Source: Alcanivoracaceae bacterium (GTDB lineage Bacteria; Pseudomonadota; Gammaproteobacteria; Pseudomonadales; Alcanivoracaceae). From it: a DNA stretch of 64,000 nt. Shown here in pieces: positions 19,328-27,819 of this stretch. Where the stretch lies: NCBI GenBank assembly GCA_029213045.1, contig JARGPN010000006.1:356123-420122 (forward strand), read 5' to 3'. Under the pieces are notes generated by a model. That model worked only from the letters and a program-made list of their open reading frames with translations. It had not been told where the DNA came from and did not search any database. The stretch's first letter is position 1, and every line of letters begins with the position of its first letter. Both the position numbers and the translations under genes were made by a program.

Positions 19328-19347
19328 TACTGTCCAAATGAGCAGTA
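19328..19347 (+). promoter_or_regulatory. LexA box (SOS operator) upstream of imuA
   Basis: TACTGT-N8-GCAGTA: both arms match the LexA consensus TACTGT/ACAGTA except one G for A. TTGCAT at 19322-19327 and TAACCT at 19346-19351 give an 18-bp spaced sigma-70-like promoter overlapping the operator. A transcription start near 19358 would fall after the GTG at 19352, which argues for ATG 19385 as the imuA start. Confidence 0.85.
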
Positions 19348-19384
19348 ACCTGTGATCACTGACCATACGAACAGGTGTGCCGAG

Positions 19385-20287
19385 ATGCAGGACATACAAA
19401 CCTCCACCAATACTAACGCTGCCGTTTCACTTGATACGCTCTATGCCCGCGCCGAAGTGTGGCGTGGCCGTATGTCACGGCCTGCTGCCGCCGCATTGAA
19501 TACCGGCTTTAGTGCTCTTGATCAGGCGTTGCACAATGGTGGCTGGCCCGCAAACGGCCTTGTAGAGCTGCTTTGCGCCTCGCCCTGTCCTCAATCTCTG
19601 CGTTTACTGCTACCGGTTCTGGCGAATCAGCAAGATGGTCTATTGGTCTTAGCCAACCCACCTGCGCGCCCACAAGCCAGTACGCTCAAGCAAGCAGGCA
19701 TTCACAGCGCCAATTTATTGGTAATGCGCAGCCACGATCATCCAACACTGCTACGCGCTTGCCGCGAAACAGCGGCCTCAGGTGCCGCCAGTGTATTAGT
19801 TGTCTGGTTACCCGAAGGTACCGACAGCCCTGCCAATTTGCGACGCCTGCACATGGCGGCACAACAAGGTCGCTGCTTACTCATTGCTTTACGCTCAGCC
19901 AACCAAGTGCAACACGCTTCACCCGCTCCATTACGATTGGTACTGCGTGCATCTCCGCCTGCACACCTAGAAATTGAAATCGTGAAGCAACCTGGTGGCT
20001 GGGGCGGGCAACGCCTCACCTTGGCCTTGCTGCCTGAGCGTTTAACCTGGCCTTTTGCCGCCACCGCAGACATGCCTGCACCTCAGGCAAACAAGGGTTC
20101 CACTAAAACGGAAAATACATCTTCCGTACCGGCATTTCGTGACCCCGATAGTCGCTTTGGCTATCGTCCAGCACCTCGCAGCTCAATATCGGAGACGATC
20201 ACACCACGTCAAAGCCAAGGCACTGTGCTTTCTGAACTTTATAGCTCAACACAAAGCCCAACCCACAACTTGAGTCTGCCGCTATGA
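19385..20287 (+). CDS. imuA: ImuA, translesion synthesis accessory protein (RecA/SulA-like)
   Basis: 300 residues from ATG 19385. The upstream GTG at 19352 lies inside the inferred promoter. Residues about 45-200 match ImuA: NTGFSALDQALHNGGWPANG and ELLCASPCPQSLRLLLPVLA, a RecA-like core without a complete Walker A. The C-terminal 60 residues are polar and variable. ImuA supports ImuB and DnaE2 in SOS mutagenesis. Expression should be LexA-repressed through the box at 19328-19347. Its TGA overlaps the next ATG by four bases (ATGA), so translation of the following small gene is probably coupled. Confidence 0.92.
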   Translation: MQDIQTSTNTNAAVSLDTLYARAEVWRGRMSRPAAAALNTGFSALDQALHNGGWPANGLVELLCASPCPQSLRLLLPVLANQQDGLLVLANPPARPQASTLKQAGIHSANLLVMRSHDHPTLLRACRETAASGAASVLVVWLPEGTDSPANLRRLHMAAQQGRCLLIALRSANQVQHASPAPLRLVLRASPPAHLEIEIVKQPGGWGGQRLTLALLPERLTWPFAATADMPAPQANKGSTKTENTSSVPAFRDPDSRFGYRPAPRSSISETITPRQSQGTVLSELYSSTQSPTHNLSLPL

Positions 20288-20658
20288 ACCTTTCTCTTGC
20301 TACCACAAGTCGTGACAATCACGCCCTACGCAACCGCTCTGTACGCAATAGTTTTACAGGAAATGTGCTTATCGGCCGCAGCACGACAACAACTAACAGC
20401 CTTGAAAATGATGCGATTGAGAGTCGTCACATCGAAGAAAACAGCATCAATAAAAGCAATGAATTTACCCGCGCTTATTCACAACCGAAAATCATCCGAG
20501 AATGGCTAAACCGCGCCGATGGACAGCGTGGCGAAAATGACATTATTCATTTTTATAGCTATTTAGAGCGCGCCCATCATGACTTATTAGAATTTGCCGC
20601 CATTGCGAACCGAAGACAAATTCTTAAAGACATGCTCCACCACTTTATGGAGTCTTGA
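20284..20658 (+). CDS. Uncharacterised small protein coupled to imuA
   Basis: 124 residues starting inside the imuA stop (ATGA). The first 60 residues are Ser/Thr/Asn/Arg-rich and likely disordered. Residues 65-124 are strongly amphipathic and helical (PKIIREWLNRADGQRGENDI followed by FYSYLERAHHDLLEF), ending in HHFMES. No metal, catalytic or DNA-binding motif is visible. I do not recognise the family. By position it belongs to the LexA-controlled imuA transcript, before imuB 195 bases later. It could be an accessory mutasome protein or chance; coding composition in the second half supports a real protein. Confidence 0.6.
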   Translation: MNLSLATTSRDNHALRNRSVRNSFTGNVLIGRSTTTTNSLENDAIESRHIEENSINKSNEFTRAYSQPKIIREWLNRADGQRGENDIIHFYSYLERAHHDLLEFAAIANRRQILKDMLHHFMES

Positions 20659-20680
20659 AGGGGCCGATTAAGCCCTTCAA
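20655..20680 (+). other. Hairpin after the small gene
   Basis: TTGAAGGG (20655-20662) pairs with CCCTTCAA (20673-20680) across the stop codon of the small gene. There is no U-run, so it is not a typical terminator. It may limit downstream transcription or protect mRNA; this is inference. The rest of the 195-base gap to imuB shows no LexA box. Confidence 0.4.
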
Positions 20681-20852
20681 AAGTGACCTACGAAAAAGTC
20701 ATCACGTTGAATTTTCTAACCTGTCTAACCTAGAGAGCACAGGCATCTGCTTTGCAGCCATCTAATTTTTCGTGTTCTTTACTTGGTTATGCATCTCATC
20801 TCTGTGCAATGCCTATGCTTCCTAAATCATTCGGTCCCCTTCGTTACTGATC

Positions 20853-22316
20853 ATGCTATGGCTGGCCATTCGTTTCCCCCTTCTCGCGCTCGAAGCTTGC
20901 CCTAACCCGCAGCCTCATCATGTTGTGCAGGAGAAAAACAAAGTCTTTCTTTCCTCTGCGCAAGCCAAAGAATACGGTATTCGTGAAGGCATGAAAGTCG
21001 CGTCGGCGCACTCTTTGTGTGACAAGCTGCTCGTCACAGACAGAGACATGCAAGCAGAAAAAATCCGCTTAAGAAATATTGCAGAACAACTATTATTTAT
21101 TACCCCTGCTGTCAGCATTGAGGCACCGGAGATCATCCTGCTCGACATACACGGCAGTCTAAAACTGTTCAATGGTTTGCCAAGCCTGCTTGAAGTATTG
21201 CAGCAGGCCATCAATCCTTTATCTCAGCAGTGGTATTGCGGTATCGGCCATACGCCACTTTGCGCCAGCCTGTTATCCAGACAGCCAATAACGCCCAATC
21301 TGTCCAACGTGGGCTCATATACACAGCAAGACTTTATTCACGCACTTAGCAACATTCCAATTGGTGAACTGCCACTTAGCACCAACCTCAAACAAACATT
21401 AAGCGCCCCAGGGTTCCGCTTTTTAGGAGACATTCTTTCTCTACCTCGTACTGCCATCGGCAAACGTCAAGGTAAGACCTTCCTGTTGTGGTTGCAGAAA
21501 CTGCTTGGCGAGACACCAGATCCTCGCCCTCCCATTGAGCAGCCTGAACGTTTCTATACGGAAGTGGAATTTTCAGACCCCGTAGAAAATGTGCAGGGCT
21601 TACTCTTTCCTGCCCAGCGTTTACTCTCGCAGTTGGAATATTTTTTACGGCAGCGGCAGTTGAGCACCAAAGCTATCCGCTGGCACTTCACCGATTATCG
21701 AAAACAAACGCAACGACTGTTAATTCGAAGGGCGAGTGACATTCCTGATATTAGCATTTGGCAAGATCTCACTAGACGTCGTTTTGAGCAAGTTCAACTC
21801 CACAGTGCAACGCTAAAACTCGGATTGGATTGCGCTCGTCCTCGCCCTTTAAAACAAAGCAGCGCAGGGCTTTTTCATACGGAAAACGAGCGCCCCGACA
21901 AGCTTGCATTACTTGAACGTCTTGCTGCGTTGCCCGCATTACAGATTAGCTTTGCTCAGCATCGCGATAACCATATACCGGAGTTAGCGCAAGACTGCCA
22001 AGACCCGCTCGCTACACACCGCCACACTGCTACGGCAAAAGATGCTTCACTGCATGCCACAACAAAAGAAGATTCGCGCTATCTTGATGAGCCCATCTGG
22101 TTACTTGAAAACCCATGGCCGCTACATCAACAACACGATCAACTTTTTTGGCGTGGCGCTGCCCTGAATATTCTTCCTGGGGAACAAAACCTGAGTAGTA
22201 ACTGGTGGGCGGAGTCTGTGCAACGCCAGTATCACGTTGCACGGCATCCATTAGGCTTATGCTGTTGGATATTTCGAGATAAAAAAAATCGTTGGTTTTT
22301 GCAGGGTTTCTTTTGA
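20853..22316 (+). CDS. imuB: ImuB, Y-family polymerase-like mutasome hub
   Basis: 487 residues, ATG 20853 (MLWLAIRFPLLALEA), the usual ImuB opening. The Y-family fold is recognisable: SSAQAKEYGIREGM, then LLDIHGSLKLFNG, and a helix-hairpin-helix thumb (LSAPGFRFLGDILSLPRTAI). The acidic catalytic residues of active Y-family polymerases (DxD near the N-terminus and the SxE motif) are absent, as expected for ImuB, which links DnaE2 to the clamp rather than copying DNA. The C-terminus WIFRDKKNRWFLQGFF is typical. No LexA box lies directly before it, so it probably depends on the imuA promoter. Confidence 0.94.
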   Translation: MLWLAIRFPLLALEACPNPQPHHVVQEKNKVFLSSAQAKEYGIREGMKVASAHSLCDKLLVTDRDMQAEKIRLRNIAEQLLFITPAVSIEAPEIILLDIHGSLKLFNGLPSLLEVLQQAINPLSQQWYCGIGHTPLCASLLSRQPITPNLSNVGSYTQQDFIHALSNIPIGELPLSTNLKQTLSAPGFRFLGDILSLPRTAIGKRQGKTFLLWLQKLLGETPDPRPPIEQPERFYTEVEFSDPVENVQGLLFPAQRLLSQLEYFLRQRQLSTKAIRWHFTDYRKQTQRLLIRRASDIPDISIWQDLTRRRFEQVQLHSATLKLGLDCARPRPLKQSSAGLFHTENERPDKLALLERLAALPALQISFAQHRDNHIPELAQDCQDPLATHRHTATAKDASLHATTKEDSRYLDEPIWLLENPWPLHQQHDQLFWRGAALNILPGEQNLSSNWWAESVQRQYHVARHPLGLCCWIFRDKKNRWFLQGFF

Positions 22317-22431: not shown

Positions 22432-23100
22432 CTATTCAACATCTTTGGGGCTGGTTTCCACCGCAAACAGTGCAGCCTTACCATTATCTGCCACGTACAA
22501 CGTTGCCCATGCTTCATCGCGCAACGCAAGCTCTAAAGCCTGCGCCTTCTCTTTTGGCGCAAACCAAGCCTCAACGCCATATTCAATTCGATAACGATCC
22601 GGTGTATCGCTTTTTACCCACGTCGCTTTGCCGTCAGGCCCTTCTACACGATCACGCGGCGCCGACCAGACATACTTAAAACGGCCTCGTAAAAACATGC
22701 CATCCTCGGGAGGCTCATCAGAGATCGCTGCGGCATCCCAACTGCCCGCCTCATTTTGAACTAACGTCACATACACACGCTGACCCTTTTTCGGCGTATC
22801 GCCCCCATGCCACAGCGTCTCGTCAATCACATTAAAGCTGTACTGCAAGCGCGCATAATTCCCGCGAAATAAATCTCGTGGATCAACAGGCTGCACCTGC
22901 ACGCGAATAGGCTGCCCAGTCCAATGTGGATACACCGCCGCCAATAACTCACCGCCTAACACGCACAGCTGAAAGAGCATCACCGCAGCTAACGCCATTA
23001 CATGCTTCTTCGCGAATATTCTATTTTTCGACGACGCCGCATTTAACATCGCTCTCGGTTGATGCTCAGAATGCTGAGGAATTTCCGTATTGTCGATCAT
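22432..23100 (-). CDS. GDYXXLXY domain membrane-anchored protein
   Basis: 222 residues from ATG 23100, whose ATGA overlaps the stop of the DUF2157 gene, so the two are translationally coupled; the longer upstream open frame (to 23376) is antisense-like and rejected. One N-terminal membrane helix (residues about 35-60) is followed by a periplasmic domain with DPRDLFRGNYARLQY, which fits the GDYxxLxY signature (the G-D is G-N here). The family occurs with DUF2157/DUF4401 membrane proteins and its role is unknown. Confidence 0.85.
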   Translation of the reverse strand: MIDNTEIPQHSEHQPRAMLNAASSKNRIFAKKHVMALAAVMLFQLCVLGGELLAAVYPHWTGQPIRVQVQPVDPRDLFRGNYARLQYSFNVIDETLWHGGDTPKKGQRVYVTLVQNEAGSWDAAAISDEPPEDGMFLRGRFKYVWSAPRDRVEGPDGKATWVKSDTPDRYRIEYGVEAWFAPKEKAQALELALRDEAWATLYVADNGKAALFAVETSPKDVE

Positions 23101-24416
23101 GCCTCTCGCTCCATCATTCGATGCTGCCAAAAGCGTGCGGCAGCAAACAGAACGCCCCCTGCTACGAGAAACAGAATTGAGCCCGTCACGTAGTCTCCGA
23201 TGACATTGACATACCGCAGGAGCGCTTGAAGCAAGACAACCACCACACCCATATAAAACAAATAGCCCGCATGTAGCTCGAGGCCCCGCAGTATTAAACG
23301 AATGGCACTGGACAATAAAATCACATTTACAATAATCGCAAACGCCATTGCCGAATCCGGCGTGGCCAACAGCCACGCGCTGAATAGCAAGCCATTAATC
23401 ACTAGGGCCGCAAGGATAACGCCCACCAAACGCGGTAATGAAATTCGCGTTGCCACAACAAGCAACAACACATCGAACACCAATAGGAACCAAAATGATG
23501 ATGCATCAACAGCGTTAAGCTTCTCAATCATGTACACCCATGTACTAGAGAAACTAAAAATCATCAGCATCAATAGCGCGCCACGCAGCAACCAAAGATT
23601 TAAAATCTCTGCCGTATCACGCCACCACGCCGATACATCAGACTTAACACCACTGGCTAACGCCTGACTAATGCCATAGCACAACAAACCAAAACCTAGA
23701 TCGACAACCCAATGTCCCGCACGAAAGCTCAATAACCAGCGCGCGCCAGACAACTCGCCATACAACATATGCAACCAAAGACCGGTGCCCCACAACAAAG
23801 CAGCAACCAGCCAGCGAGAGGGTTCAGCCCGCCATAATTGCCACGCTAACGCGAATAAAAAGACGGGGTAAAACGTGGCAAGGCCATATTCAGATTCCGC
23901 AAATAACCAACAGGTAGCTAACGCCCAATGGAGTAAATGCAGTAATCGGCTTTGCGTAATAAAGGCCATCGGCACAACGCCCAGCGCCCACCAAAACAAA
24001 CCGTCAGGAAAATGCTCACCAAGATGGTAAATCTGCGCGATCAACATAATGCTCGCGCCGTAGGCAATACTACCGGCGAATATCCAGCGCTTGCCGAGAT
24101 CAATTTCGCCACGGACATAGCAACGCAGGCCCCATCCGTTTAAACCTGCTGTTAAGGTCATTAACGACAGCATCCGAACTGCACGGGGAATCTCATCCCA
24201 GTTATGACTAATCAATAAAAGTAACGCCAACCCCATGGAAAAAATGGCAAGCCCAATCAGCATGCTATAGCCGAACGAATGGTGCCGGCGGTCATCCAAA
24301 GACGTGTCATAACGCTCAAGAATCTTTTCCGCCTGACTTCGTTCAACCAGACCGTCTTCCATCCACTGGCGCACTTCCCGCACCAGCTCACCTTTTAATA
24401 ACCGCAGCAATCCCAT
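23097..24416 (-). CDS. DUF2157 family polytopic membrane protein
   Basis: 439 residues, AGGAGACAGC before ATG 24416. The N-terminal 40 residues are a soluble helical part (KGELVREVRQWMEDGLVERS) typical of DUF2157, followed by about twelve hydrophobic segments, among them one containing LLISHNWDEIPRAVRM. It forms a two-gene operon with the GDYXXLXY gene. This operon sits, opposed, between imuB and dnaE2. The dnaE2 LexA box is 171 bases upstream of its start, too far to assume control. Biochemical function of DUF2157 is unknown. Confidence 0.9.
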   Translation of the reverse strand: MGLLRLLKGELVREVRQWMEDGLVERSQAEKILERYDTSLDDRRHHSFGYSMLIGLAIFSMGLALLLLISHNWDEIPRAVRMLSLMTLTAGLNGWGLRCYVRGEIDLGKRWIFAGSIAYGASIMLIAQIYHLGEHFPDGLFWWALGVVPMAFITQSRLLHLLHWALATCWLFAESEYGLATFYPVFLFALAWQLWRAEPSRWLVAALLWGTGLWLHMLYGELSGARWLLSFRAGHWVVDLGFGLLCYGISQALASGVKSDVSAWWRDTAEILNLWLLRGALLMLMIFSFSSTWVYMIEKLNAVDASSFWFLLVFDVLLLVVATRISLPRLVGVILAALVINGLLFSAWLLATPDSAMAFAIIVNVILLSSAIRLILRGLELHAGYLFYMGVVVVLLQALLRYVNVIGDYVTGSILFLVAGGVLFAAARFWQHRMMEREA

Positions 24417-24720
24417 GCTGTCTCCTGTTTTTCTTGAATAAGGTAATGCATGCCTGCGTCATCTGGAGATACAGCCACCGAGAATGCCCTGTATACAAGA
24501 TACAAGGCAACAAATGGACTGTTTCAGAATTCGCCGAGGGGTGTTCAATAAAAACGCGGAACAAGCGCGACGCTACTTGCAAGATATACTGTCTATTTGT
24601 ACAGTATCAGCAATGAGACTCCCTGCTCTCCTAAGCGCCCCTGTATGCCCAACTGACCTCAGGCTCCTGTCTTCAGGAATACCGTATTTAGACACCTAGC
24701 CACACAGACACCTATGACCT
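24417..24720. other. Divergent intergenic region holding the dnaE2 promoter
   Basis: 304 bases between the DUF2157 gene and dnaE2. It holds the LexA box and the sigma-70-like promoter listed separately. A 28-codon frame at 24613-24699 begins almost at the inferred transcription start and lacks a ribosome site, so it is not called. No other element was seen. Confidence 0.6.
24577..24606 (+). promoter_or_regulatory. dnaE2 promoter with canonical LexA box
   Basis: The 20-mer at 24587-24606 is a near-perfect LexA operator: TACTGT, eight spacer bases, ACAGTA, exact in both arms. TTGCAA (24577-24582) and TACAGT (24600-24605) are 17 bp apart, so the operator covers the spacer and the -10. Repression by LexA and induction by DNA damage are expected. 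Confidence 0.92.
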
Positions 24721-27700
24721 ATGTATGCCGAACTGCACTGCACAAGCTCTTTTACCTTTCTAACTGGCGCTAGCCAGCCAGAGGAGCTGGTATTACAGGC
24801 TCATGCTCTTGGTTATCAGGCCATCGCCATTACCGACGAATGCTCTTTTGCTGGGATCGTGCGCGCACTTCAAGCCGCCAAGCAATGCGCCCTGCCGCTA
24901 ATTATCGGCAGTCGATTCCGTATTGATTGCGACACGGCCACACCCATCAATGTGATTTTATTAGCGCAAGATAAAACCGCCTACAGCGAAATATCAGCAC
25001 TGATAACGCGGGGACGACGGCGAAGCGACAAAGGCCAATACCAATTACATTGGCGTGATGTGGAAAAAATCATTCGCCACGCGCTCGCCTTATGGGTGCC
25101 TACCCATACAGACGAAGATCAACAGCACGGCACGTTTCTGGCTGCGCATTTTCCACAGCGACTATGGCTCTGCTGTGCCCTGTTGCAAGAAGATAATGAC
25201 GGCGCGCGCTACCATTACCTCTATGAATTAGCGGAGAACTTTCGCGTTCCAATGATCGCCAGCAACGACGTCCACATGCACCACCCAAACCGGCAACCTC
25301 TGCAAGATATCCTTACTGCTATTCGCCTAAAATCCCCCGTACAACAGTTAGGCAAGCAACGCTTTAAAAACGCACAACGTCACCTGCGGCCAATTGAAAC
25401 ATTGCAATCGATTTACCCACAACCGCTACTCGATGAAACCCTTCATATTGCTGGGCAATGCACCTTTTCTCTCAACGAATTACGTTATCAATATCCGCAA
25501 GAAGTTGTTCCCAGTGGCACCAATGCAACACAGTATCTTCGCGCATTAGTCGAACAAGGTGCTTTAACACGCTGGCCCAATGGCACGCCAGAAAATATCG
25601 TCGTCCTGCTCAACACTGAGCTGGCACTCATCAACGAACTCCAATACGAATATTATTTTCTCACCGTACACGACATCGTCAGTTACGCTCGTAGCCAAAA
25701 CATCCTCTGCCAAGGACGAGGCAGCGCTGCGAATTCAGCCGTATGTTATTGCCTGTTTATCACTGAAATTGATCCATCAAGAAGCCAACTATTATTTGAG
25801 CGGTTTATTTCTCGTGAACGCGATGAGCCTCCCGACATTGACGTGGACTTCGAGCACGAACGGCGCGAAGAAGTCATTCAATACATTTACCAAAAATATG
25901 GCCGCGATCGCGCAGCACTCGCCGCCACTGTCATCCGATATCGGATGCGCTCTGCAGTGCGTGACGTAGGACGCGCCCTTGGTTTGGATGAAAGCCTGCT
26001 CAATGTGTTAGCCAAACAACTTGCGTGGTGGGATAAGCCCGACACCTTAGCCCAGCGTTTTCATGAAGCCGGCCTAAACAATCAGCATATTGCTGATCTG
26101 TACATTAAACTGGTCATGGCGTTGCTCGGCTTTCCTAGGCATTTATCTCAGCATGTTGGCGGCTTTGTTATCACCCGCGACCCTGTACATACACTTGTTC
26201 CTGTCGAAAACGCGGCCATGGCAGATCGCACGATTATTCAATGGGACAAAGAGGACCTTGAATCTCTGGGGTTAATGAAAGTCGACGTGTTGGCGCTTGG
26301 CATGCTAACTGCCATTCGAAAAATGCTCGACGAAATCAATCGCTATGAAGACTCAACGCTAACGATGCAAGGTATTCCTGCTAAAGATGCCCCCACCTAC
26401 GCGATGCTATGTAAAGGTGACAGCCTAGGCGTTTTTCAAGTGGAATCCCGTGCGCAAATGAATATGTTGCCGCGTTTAAAACCAAATAACTTTTATGACC
26501 TTGTTATTCAAGTCGCCATCGTGCGTCCCGGCCCCATTCAAGGCGACATGGTGCACCCGTATCTACGCCGCCGAAATGGAGAGGAAGCCGTTGCTTATCC
26601 AGATAAACGTGTAGAAGACGTTCTTTCCAGAACACTTGGCATTCCTATTTTCCAAGAACAGGTCATTCAGCTAGTGATGGTGGCCGCAGGTTTTAACGGC
26701 GGGCAAGCAGACCAACTTCGTCGTGCCATGGCCAGCTGGGGAAAGTCTGGGGAGTTGGAGAAATTTCAACACCCGATTGTTCAAGGCATGGTTAAAAATG
26801 GCTACACCTTAGAATGGGCCGAGCGCCTCTTCGAAATGATGAAAGGTTTCGGTGGTTATGGGTTCCCCGAATCGCATTCAGCCAGTTTTGCCTTACTGGT
26901 TTACGTTTCCGCGTGGATGAAACGCCACCATACAAGCGCATTTTATTGCGGATTACTAAACAGTCTTCCCATGGGCTTTTATTCCCCGTCGCAACTTATT
27001 CAAGATGCGCGCCGTCATGGCATAGAGGTGCGGCCCGTTGATATCCATAACAGCACTTGGGAATACCAACTTGAGGACATCGAACGTAAGGCACTCGGCG
27101 TGCAACCAGCATTACGCATCGGCTTTAGGCAAATCAAAGGCTTTAATGAAGATGCGGCACGCAGAATAGAAAATGCACGGAACAACCACGCGTTTGTTTC
27201 ACTTAACGATGTCTATCAACGCGCAACCCTATCGCCGCAAGAAAGACAGGTACTCGTTGATGCCGACGCTTTGCGCCCGATCACCGGCCATCGGCATCAA
27301 GCCCACTGGCAAGACCAAGGCGTGCAGGAAAGTCGACCGCTGTTCGATTACGAACACACACAACAAGACAACGACAACATAGCCTTGGACGCGCCTTCGG
27401 AAATGGAATCAATGCTGAGCGATTACCAACGACTCTCGCTGACCCTAGGTAAACACCCTATGGCGTTAGTGCGCTATCGAGAAGAGTTCAAAAACTGCCT
27501 AACCGCACGGGATTTAAAACATGCTCGCCACGGGCAACTTGCGCGGGTGGCCGGATTGGTGACTAACCGACAACGTCCAGGCACCGCATCAGGAATTTTA
27601 TTTATGACGCTGGAAGATGAAACCGGCAACACCAATGTGATTATTTGGAAGTCATTACAGGAAACGTTTCGACAAGAGATATTGAGCGGAAGCTTATTAC

Positions 27701-27819
27701 TCATCAAAGGCACATTGGAGAAATCCGCAGACGGGATCATCCATTTAATAGCCGGTCACGTAAGCGACCATAGCAATGTCATTAACGCCTTAACGGTAAA
27801 GTCGCGAGATTTCCATTAA
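24721..27819 (+). CDS. dnaE2: DnaE2, error-prone DNA polymerase III alpha-type subunit
   Basis: 1032 residues. The start MYAELHCTSSFTFLTGASQP is the conserved DnaE2 opening, an N-terminal PHP domain. The polymerase active site is seen at PDIDVDFEHERREEVIQYIY (residues about 375-395), and the fingers at FQEQVIQLVMVAAGF and YGFPESHSASFA. An OB-fold lies near residues 935-1000 (GLVTNRQRPGTASGILFMTL). Length and motifs are complete. It works with ImuA and ImuB for lesion bypass under SOS. It has its own LexA-controlled promoter, separated from imuAB by an opposed two-gene operon. The ribosome site before 24721 is poor. Confidence 0.96.
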   Translation: MYAELHCTSSFTFLTGASQPEELVLQAHALGYQAIAITDECSFAGIVRALQAAKQCALPLIIGSRFRIDCDTATPINVILLAQDKTAYSEISALITRGRRRSDKGQYQLHWRDVEKIIRHALALWVPTHTDEDQQHGTFLAAHFPQRLWLCCALLQEDNDGARYHYLYELAENFRVPMIASNDVHMHHPNRQPLQDILTAIRLKSPVQQLGKQRFKNAQRHLRPIETLQSIYPQPLLDETLHIAGQCTFSLNELRYQYPQEVVPSGTNATQYLRALVEQGALTRWPNGTPENIVVLLNTELALINELQYEYYFLTVHDIVSYARSQNILCQGRGSAANSAVCYCLFITEIDPSRSQLLFERFISRERDEPPDIDVDFEHERREEVIQYIYQKYGRDRAALAATVIRYRMRSAVRDVGRALGLDESLLNVLAKQLAWWDKPDTLAQRFHEAGLNNQHIADLYIKLVMALLGFPRHLSQHVGGFVITRDPVHTLVPVENAAMADRTIIQWDKEDLESLGLMKVDVLALGMLTAIRKMLDEINRYEDSTLTMQGIPAKDAPTYAMLCKGDSLGVFQVESRAQMNMLPRLKPNNFYDLVIQVAIVRPGPIQGDMVHPYLRRRNGEEAVAYPDKRVEDVLSRTLGIPIFQEQVIQLVMVAAGFNGGQADQLRRAMASWGKSGELEKFQHPIVQGMVKNGYTLEWAERLFEMMKGFGGYGFPESHSASFALLVYVSAWMKRHHTSAFYCGLLNSLPMGFYSPSQLIQDARRHGIEVRPVDIHNSTWEYQLEDIERKALGVQPALRIGFRQIKGFNEDAARRIENARNNHAFVSLNDVYQRATLSPQERQVLVDADALRPITGHRHQAHWQDQGVQESRPLFDYEHTQQDNDNIALDAPSEMESMLSDYQRLSLTLGKHPMALVRYREEFKNCLTARDLKHARHGQLARVAGLVTNRQRPGTASGILFMTLEDETGNTNVIIWKSLQETFRQEILSGSLLLIKGTLEKSADGIIHLIAGHVSDHSNVINALTVKSRDFH

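Follow-up and report, generated by a model that had tools for sequence, protein, structure and literature searches.

The locus described here lies in a 64,000-nucleotide stretch of an Alcanivoracaceae genome (the window) and encodes the components of the ImuA–ImuB–DnaE2 mutasome, which makes damage-induced mutations in many bacteria. The genes imuA and imuB follow one another on the plus strand with dnaE2 nearby, an arrangement that marks this as an ImuA–ImuB–DnaE2 mutasome locus. A small gene sits between imuA and imuB, and another species of its genus (the congener) carries a homologue. The features are the following:

19330–19345, plus strand: LexA-like box 1, CTGTCCAAATGAGCAG, one mismatch; position conserved in the congener
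19359–19374, plus strand: LexA-like box 2, CTGACCATACGAACAG, one mismatch; same sequence in the congener
19385–20287, plus strand: imuA; ATG 19385 is the likely start, C-terminus NLSLPL
20284–20658, plus strand: small gene, maximal ORF of 124 codons from an ATG; supported by the ORF list, substitution pattern and codon usage
20284–20466, plus strand: lineage-specific, disordered N-terminal part of the small gene (residues 1–61); without counterpart in the congener, true start uncertain
20467–20655, plus strand: conserved helical core of the small gene (residues 62–124); 79% identity with the congener, AlphaFold helices
20659–20852, plus strand: spacer of 194 nt between the small gene and imuB; no conserved ORF
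20853–22316, plus strand: imuB; PF00817 IMS match
24589–24604, plus strand: LexA box CTGTCTATTTGTACAG, without mismatch, lying upstream of dnaE2; no second perfect CTGT-N8-ACAG in the window
24721–27819, plus strand: dnaE2 (error-prone DNA polymerase); NF004225 at 1404 bits

ImuA matches NCBIfam NF033429 (E = 4e-43), its 147 bits falling just below the cut-off of 150, and ImuB is full length in the window, with relatives aligning to residue 487. The locus shares with the ImuA–ImuB–DnaE2 cassette of Proteobacteria the order of imuA and imuB, a downstream dnaE2 and LexA-like boxes before imuA and dnaE2. It differs in the extra small gene and in two minus-strand genes (22432–24416; GDYXXLXY-type and DUF2157-type by eye), also kept in the congener, which part imuB from dnaE2 and set the latter apart, ~2.4 kb further on, as a second LexA-boxed unit.

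Taking CTGT-N8-ACAG as the LexA box consensus, we find tandem LexA-like boxes 29 nt apart before imuA, both of them kept in the congener. The preliminary description had placed a LexA-controlled promoter at 19328–19347; box 1 is indeed there, but with its one mismatch it is weaker than implied, and box 2 had been missed. Box 2 overlaps the region right after GTG 19352; because a start at this GTG would place a LexA box within the gene, imuA likely begins at ATG 19385. LexA is present in both genomes, and lexA, recA and dnaE2 each have a perfect upstream box in both. The conserved boxes, with those of lexA and recA as reference, argue at the level of sequence for LexA control of the mutasome locus. 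The plus strand showed no terminator-like site. As the boxes before imuA are kept in both species, damage-induced co-expression of the small gene with imuA is likely.

The small ORF is present as first described, with 124 codons on the plus strand and an ATG that overlaps the imuA TGA (20285–20287) as ATGA. Homologues between imuA and imuB elsewhere and a bias of synonymous over nonsynonymous change were looked for, and both were found. The homologue lies on MAG contig JAGPVL010000023.1 of the congener (uncultured gammaproteobacterium, bin Lab_640_Crude_bin.13), is likewise placed between imuA and imuB, and is the sole match beside the window itself among 57 related genomes searched. DNA similarity between the two is limited to the core (query bases 208–369 of 569), the 63 residues of which are 79% identical. 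Here pN is 0.13 and pS 0.80 (synonymous change is saturated), and 11, 7 and 33 substitutions fall on codon positions 1, 2 and 3, respectively. In-frame codon usage of the core scores above all wrong-frame windows and, among real genes, at the 58th percentile. These results indicate that the small gene is a real protein gene; the pN/pS values and the codon-position pattern rule out a non-coding or chance ORF. Because synonymous sites in the core are saturated, constraint acts on the protein, and constraint on the RNA is ruled out. The same comparison indicates that only the C-terminal helical half (residues 62–124) is conserved.

Both loci have the same flanks, with a GGDEF/EAL gene before and the GDYXXLXY-type gene, the DUF2157-type gene and dnaE2 after (names other than imuA, imuB and dnaE2 were assigned by eye); the congener has one added hydrolase-like gene, also named by eye, among them. 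Between the two species the core is more conserved than ImuA (61% identity), ImuB (48%) or the DnaE2 N-terminus (64%). The other neighbours are 61% (GGDEF/EAL), 64% (DUF2157) and 51% (GDYXXLXY) identical, and across the six neighbouring proteins 1.8% of 63-residue windows reach 79%. The SOS reference proteins RecA and LexA are 89% and 85% identical.

The small gene had been described as encoding a 124-residue protein translationally coupled to imuA through the ATGA. The ORF and the overlap are there, but the start at 20284 was not confirmed, residues 1–61 being absent from the congener. Coupling to imuA is not supported as a general property: the congener gene begins 70 nt after the imuA stop with its own Shine–Dalgarno sequence (AGGAG-N8-ATG) and encodes 75 residues. 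The window codon aligned with this ATG is ATC (20431), so that the window gene needs an upstream start, either ATG 20284 or the alternative in-frame GTG 20365. Residues 1–61 use codons much as real genes do: they rank at the 32nd percentile among true frames and at the 99.8th among wrong frames, with a clear signal in residues 28–61 and an ambiguous one in residues 1–27. Because the congener lacks residues 1–61, the ATGA-coupled start would be specific to the window genome and is unproven. The first residues of the ORF, MNLSLA (20284–20301), resemble the ImuA tail NLSLPL just upstream; the resemblance is absent in the congener and is possibly due to chance.

An AlphaFold model built from the two sequences agrees with the earlier view of a disordered first half (pLDDT about 40) and a helical second half (about 75–81, and up to 83 in the helical core block), with helices at core residues 8–16, 23–46 and 50–62. 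A Foldseek search of the structure library with the core model returned no PDB match and only viral matches at E > 1; with only 63 residues and a mean pLDDT of 73, the model of the core on its own does not allow a new fold to be claimed from this lack of a match. In keeping with the proposal that the protein belongs to no known family, no match was found in Pfam, NCBIfam, PHROGs or PDB sequences. The core is hydrophilic with a pI of about 6.9, properties that suit a partner protein in the cytosol more than a protein that binds DNA or sits in a membrane. A candidate clamp-binding motif in the small protein was set aside: 'QFYSYL' in the congener reads 'HFYSYL' in the window, and the segment lies within a predicted helix.

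No further convincing copies of the small gene were found in 46 genomes of the family, 390 of the order and 369 of the class, nor were relatives found in viral contigs, plasmids or phages, which speaks against a phage or plasmid origin. A peptide-pattern search, able to pick up only close relatives, covered contigs of about 85,000 species and gave nothing beyond the two species. Distant profile matches in the order and class genomes (E = 0.001–1) were discarded as short, often crossing stops or lying within longer frames, and at chance level for several hundred genomes. Such an ORF would have no room in 26 other loci, 19 from the family and 7 from the order, where imuB begins −197 to 64 nt after the imuA stop. 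Both genes were found on one contig and strand in 121 of 244 genomes of the order; in 111 of these 121, imuB starts at most 520 nt past the end of the ImuA domain, compared with 856 nt in the window. The other nine non-adjoining loci, eight of them from one other family, have imuA and imuB 0.9 to 30 kb apart, so the pair need not adjoin. Five interrupted stretches that we inspected seemed to contain ordinary unrelated genes (for example, OsmC-like by eye) or no clear genes. In one member of the family the place directly before imuB is taken not by imuA but by a gene that looks MetE-like by eye. Across the genomes surveyed, the small gene thus appears restricted to one genus, in two species so far, and so is not a general mutasome component. 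As it is absent elsewhere and imuA and imuB adjoin in most relatives, it entered the imuA–imuB junction, or arose there, within this genus's own lineage.

To our knowledge, the established components of the mutasome are ImuA, ImuB and DnaE2, and its recruitment and restraint are poorly known. The available text of surveys from 2019 and 2026 describes no fourth gene in imuA–imuB–dnaE2 loci, and gives UmuD′, YqjX/YolD, ImuB-C and SRAP-like proteins as known or proposed small mutasome partners (PMC6511836, PMC12926913). Like YqjX/YolD and UmuD′, the small protein comes from an operon that also encodes a Y-family protein and has a predicted disordered N-terminal part, a comparison that concerns only how it might work. 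Those subunits are described in the available text as having an SH3-like beta core (PMC6511836), whereas the window core is predicted, with moderate confidence, to be all-helical, its N-terminal part is not conserved, and no Pfam or NCBIfam match to a YqjX/YolD-like or UmuD-like subunit was found. Standalone ImuB-C, which some dnaE2 operons encode and which is likewise small and linked to the mutasome, is beta-structured according to the same text (PMC6511836), whereas in the window ImuB-C is still part of the full-length ImuB and the small core is predicted to be helical and is without a match. By fold and sequence, the small protein belongs to none of the partners tested; by analogy, it may work like them.

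We tentatively propose, with a probability of roughly 0.45, that this is a genus-restricted gene on the LexA-repressed imuA transcript whose core docks on a mutasome protein or on RecA. Upon DNA damage, ImuA and probably ImuB would be accompanied by this protein, which would be small, soluble and close to neutral, with three helices forming a conserved core of ~60 residues. The core would most likely dock on ImuA, ImuB, DnaE2 or RecA, making the protein a lineage-specific accessory or regulatory mutasome subunit. Position, co-regulation and conservation are what this proposal draws on: if a protein is produced alongside ImuA and stays conserved where ImuA and ImuB themselves diverge, it would most simply be an accessory mutasome partner, and because imuA and imuB adjoin in most genomes of the order, an extra gene kept between them in two diverged species is notable. 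Against a subunit role, only two sequences are known, and no interaction, structural match or known family linking the protein to ImuA, ImuB, DnaE2 or RecA was found. All relatives with imuA–imuB lack the gene, so the mutasome in general can work without it.

A gene under SOS control does not have to take part in mutagenesis, and LexA regulons often hold unrelated small genes. It is nearly as likely that the small protein is a damage-induced passenger, sharing the imuA promoter and acting elsewhere; it could, for example, help to halt the cell cycle, act on a different repair protein, or be a factor of phage origin or of the toxin/antitoxin type. The LexA-like boxes before imuA would fit such a passenger, and its absence from all other mutasome loci surveyed points the same way. 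However, two species that share only 48% identity in ImuB both keep the gene at this exact place between imuA and imuB, it has no phage, plasmid or viral-contig relative, and no partner toxin or antitoxin gene is seen adjoining it.

Two further explanations were considered. The frame could chiefly carry ribosomes from imuA to imuB, its product mattering little, as the ATGA overlap would allow; in addition, the spacer RNA (20656–20841) has a predicted long-range pairing of GAAGGGGCCGA with TCGGTCCCCTTC (z −2.4), which could bring the stop region of the small gene near the start region of imuB. A relay of this kind needs no amino-acid sequence kept at 79% under saturated synonymous change, and neither the 194-nt spacer, which is shorter in the congener, nor the congener's 70-nt gap after imuA is a coupling distance. 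It is largely refuted for the core, and we regard it as very improbable overall. More improbable still is that the gene is a piece or remnant of imuA, imuB or some other known gene, as its place exactly at the junction and the echo of the ImuA tail in MNLSLA might suggest. This is contradicted by the full-length ImuA and ImuB, by a core that matches neither of them, nor Pfam, NCBIfam or any other window ORF, and by the strong purifying selection on that core.

If the small protein is an accessory mutasome subunit, its gene, a conserved fourth member of the operon even if in a single genus, would offer a compact natural handle on how the complex is regulated. If it is only a passenger, the gene would still be an orphan new to the SOS response, with strong selection on its protein.

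The C-terminus of ImuA reads NLSLPL (20267–20287 in the window) in both species of the genus, and QNLPF in two relatives. These tails resemble beta-clamp-binding peptides, an example of which is QLSLPL of E. coli Hda, suggesting that the ImuA proteins of this group may be beta-clamp binders themselves.
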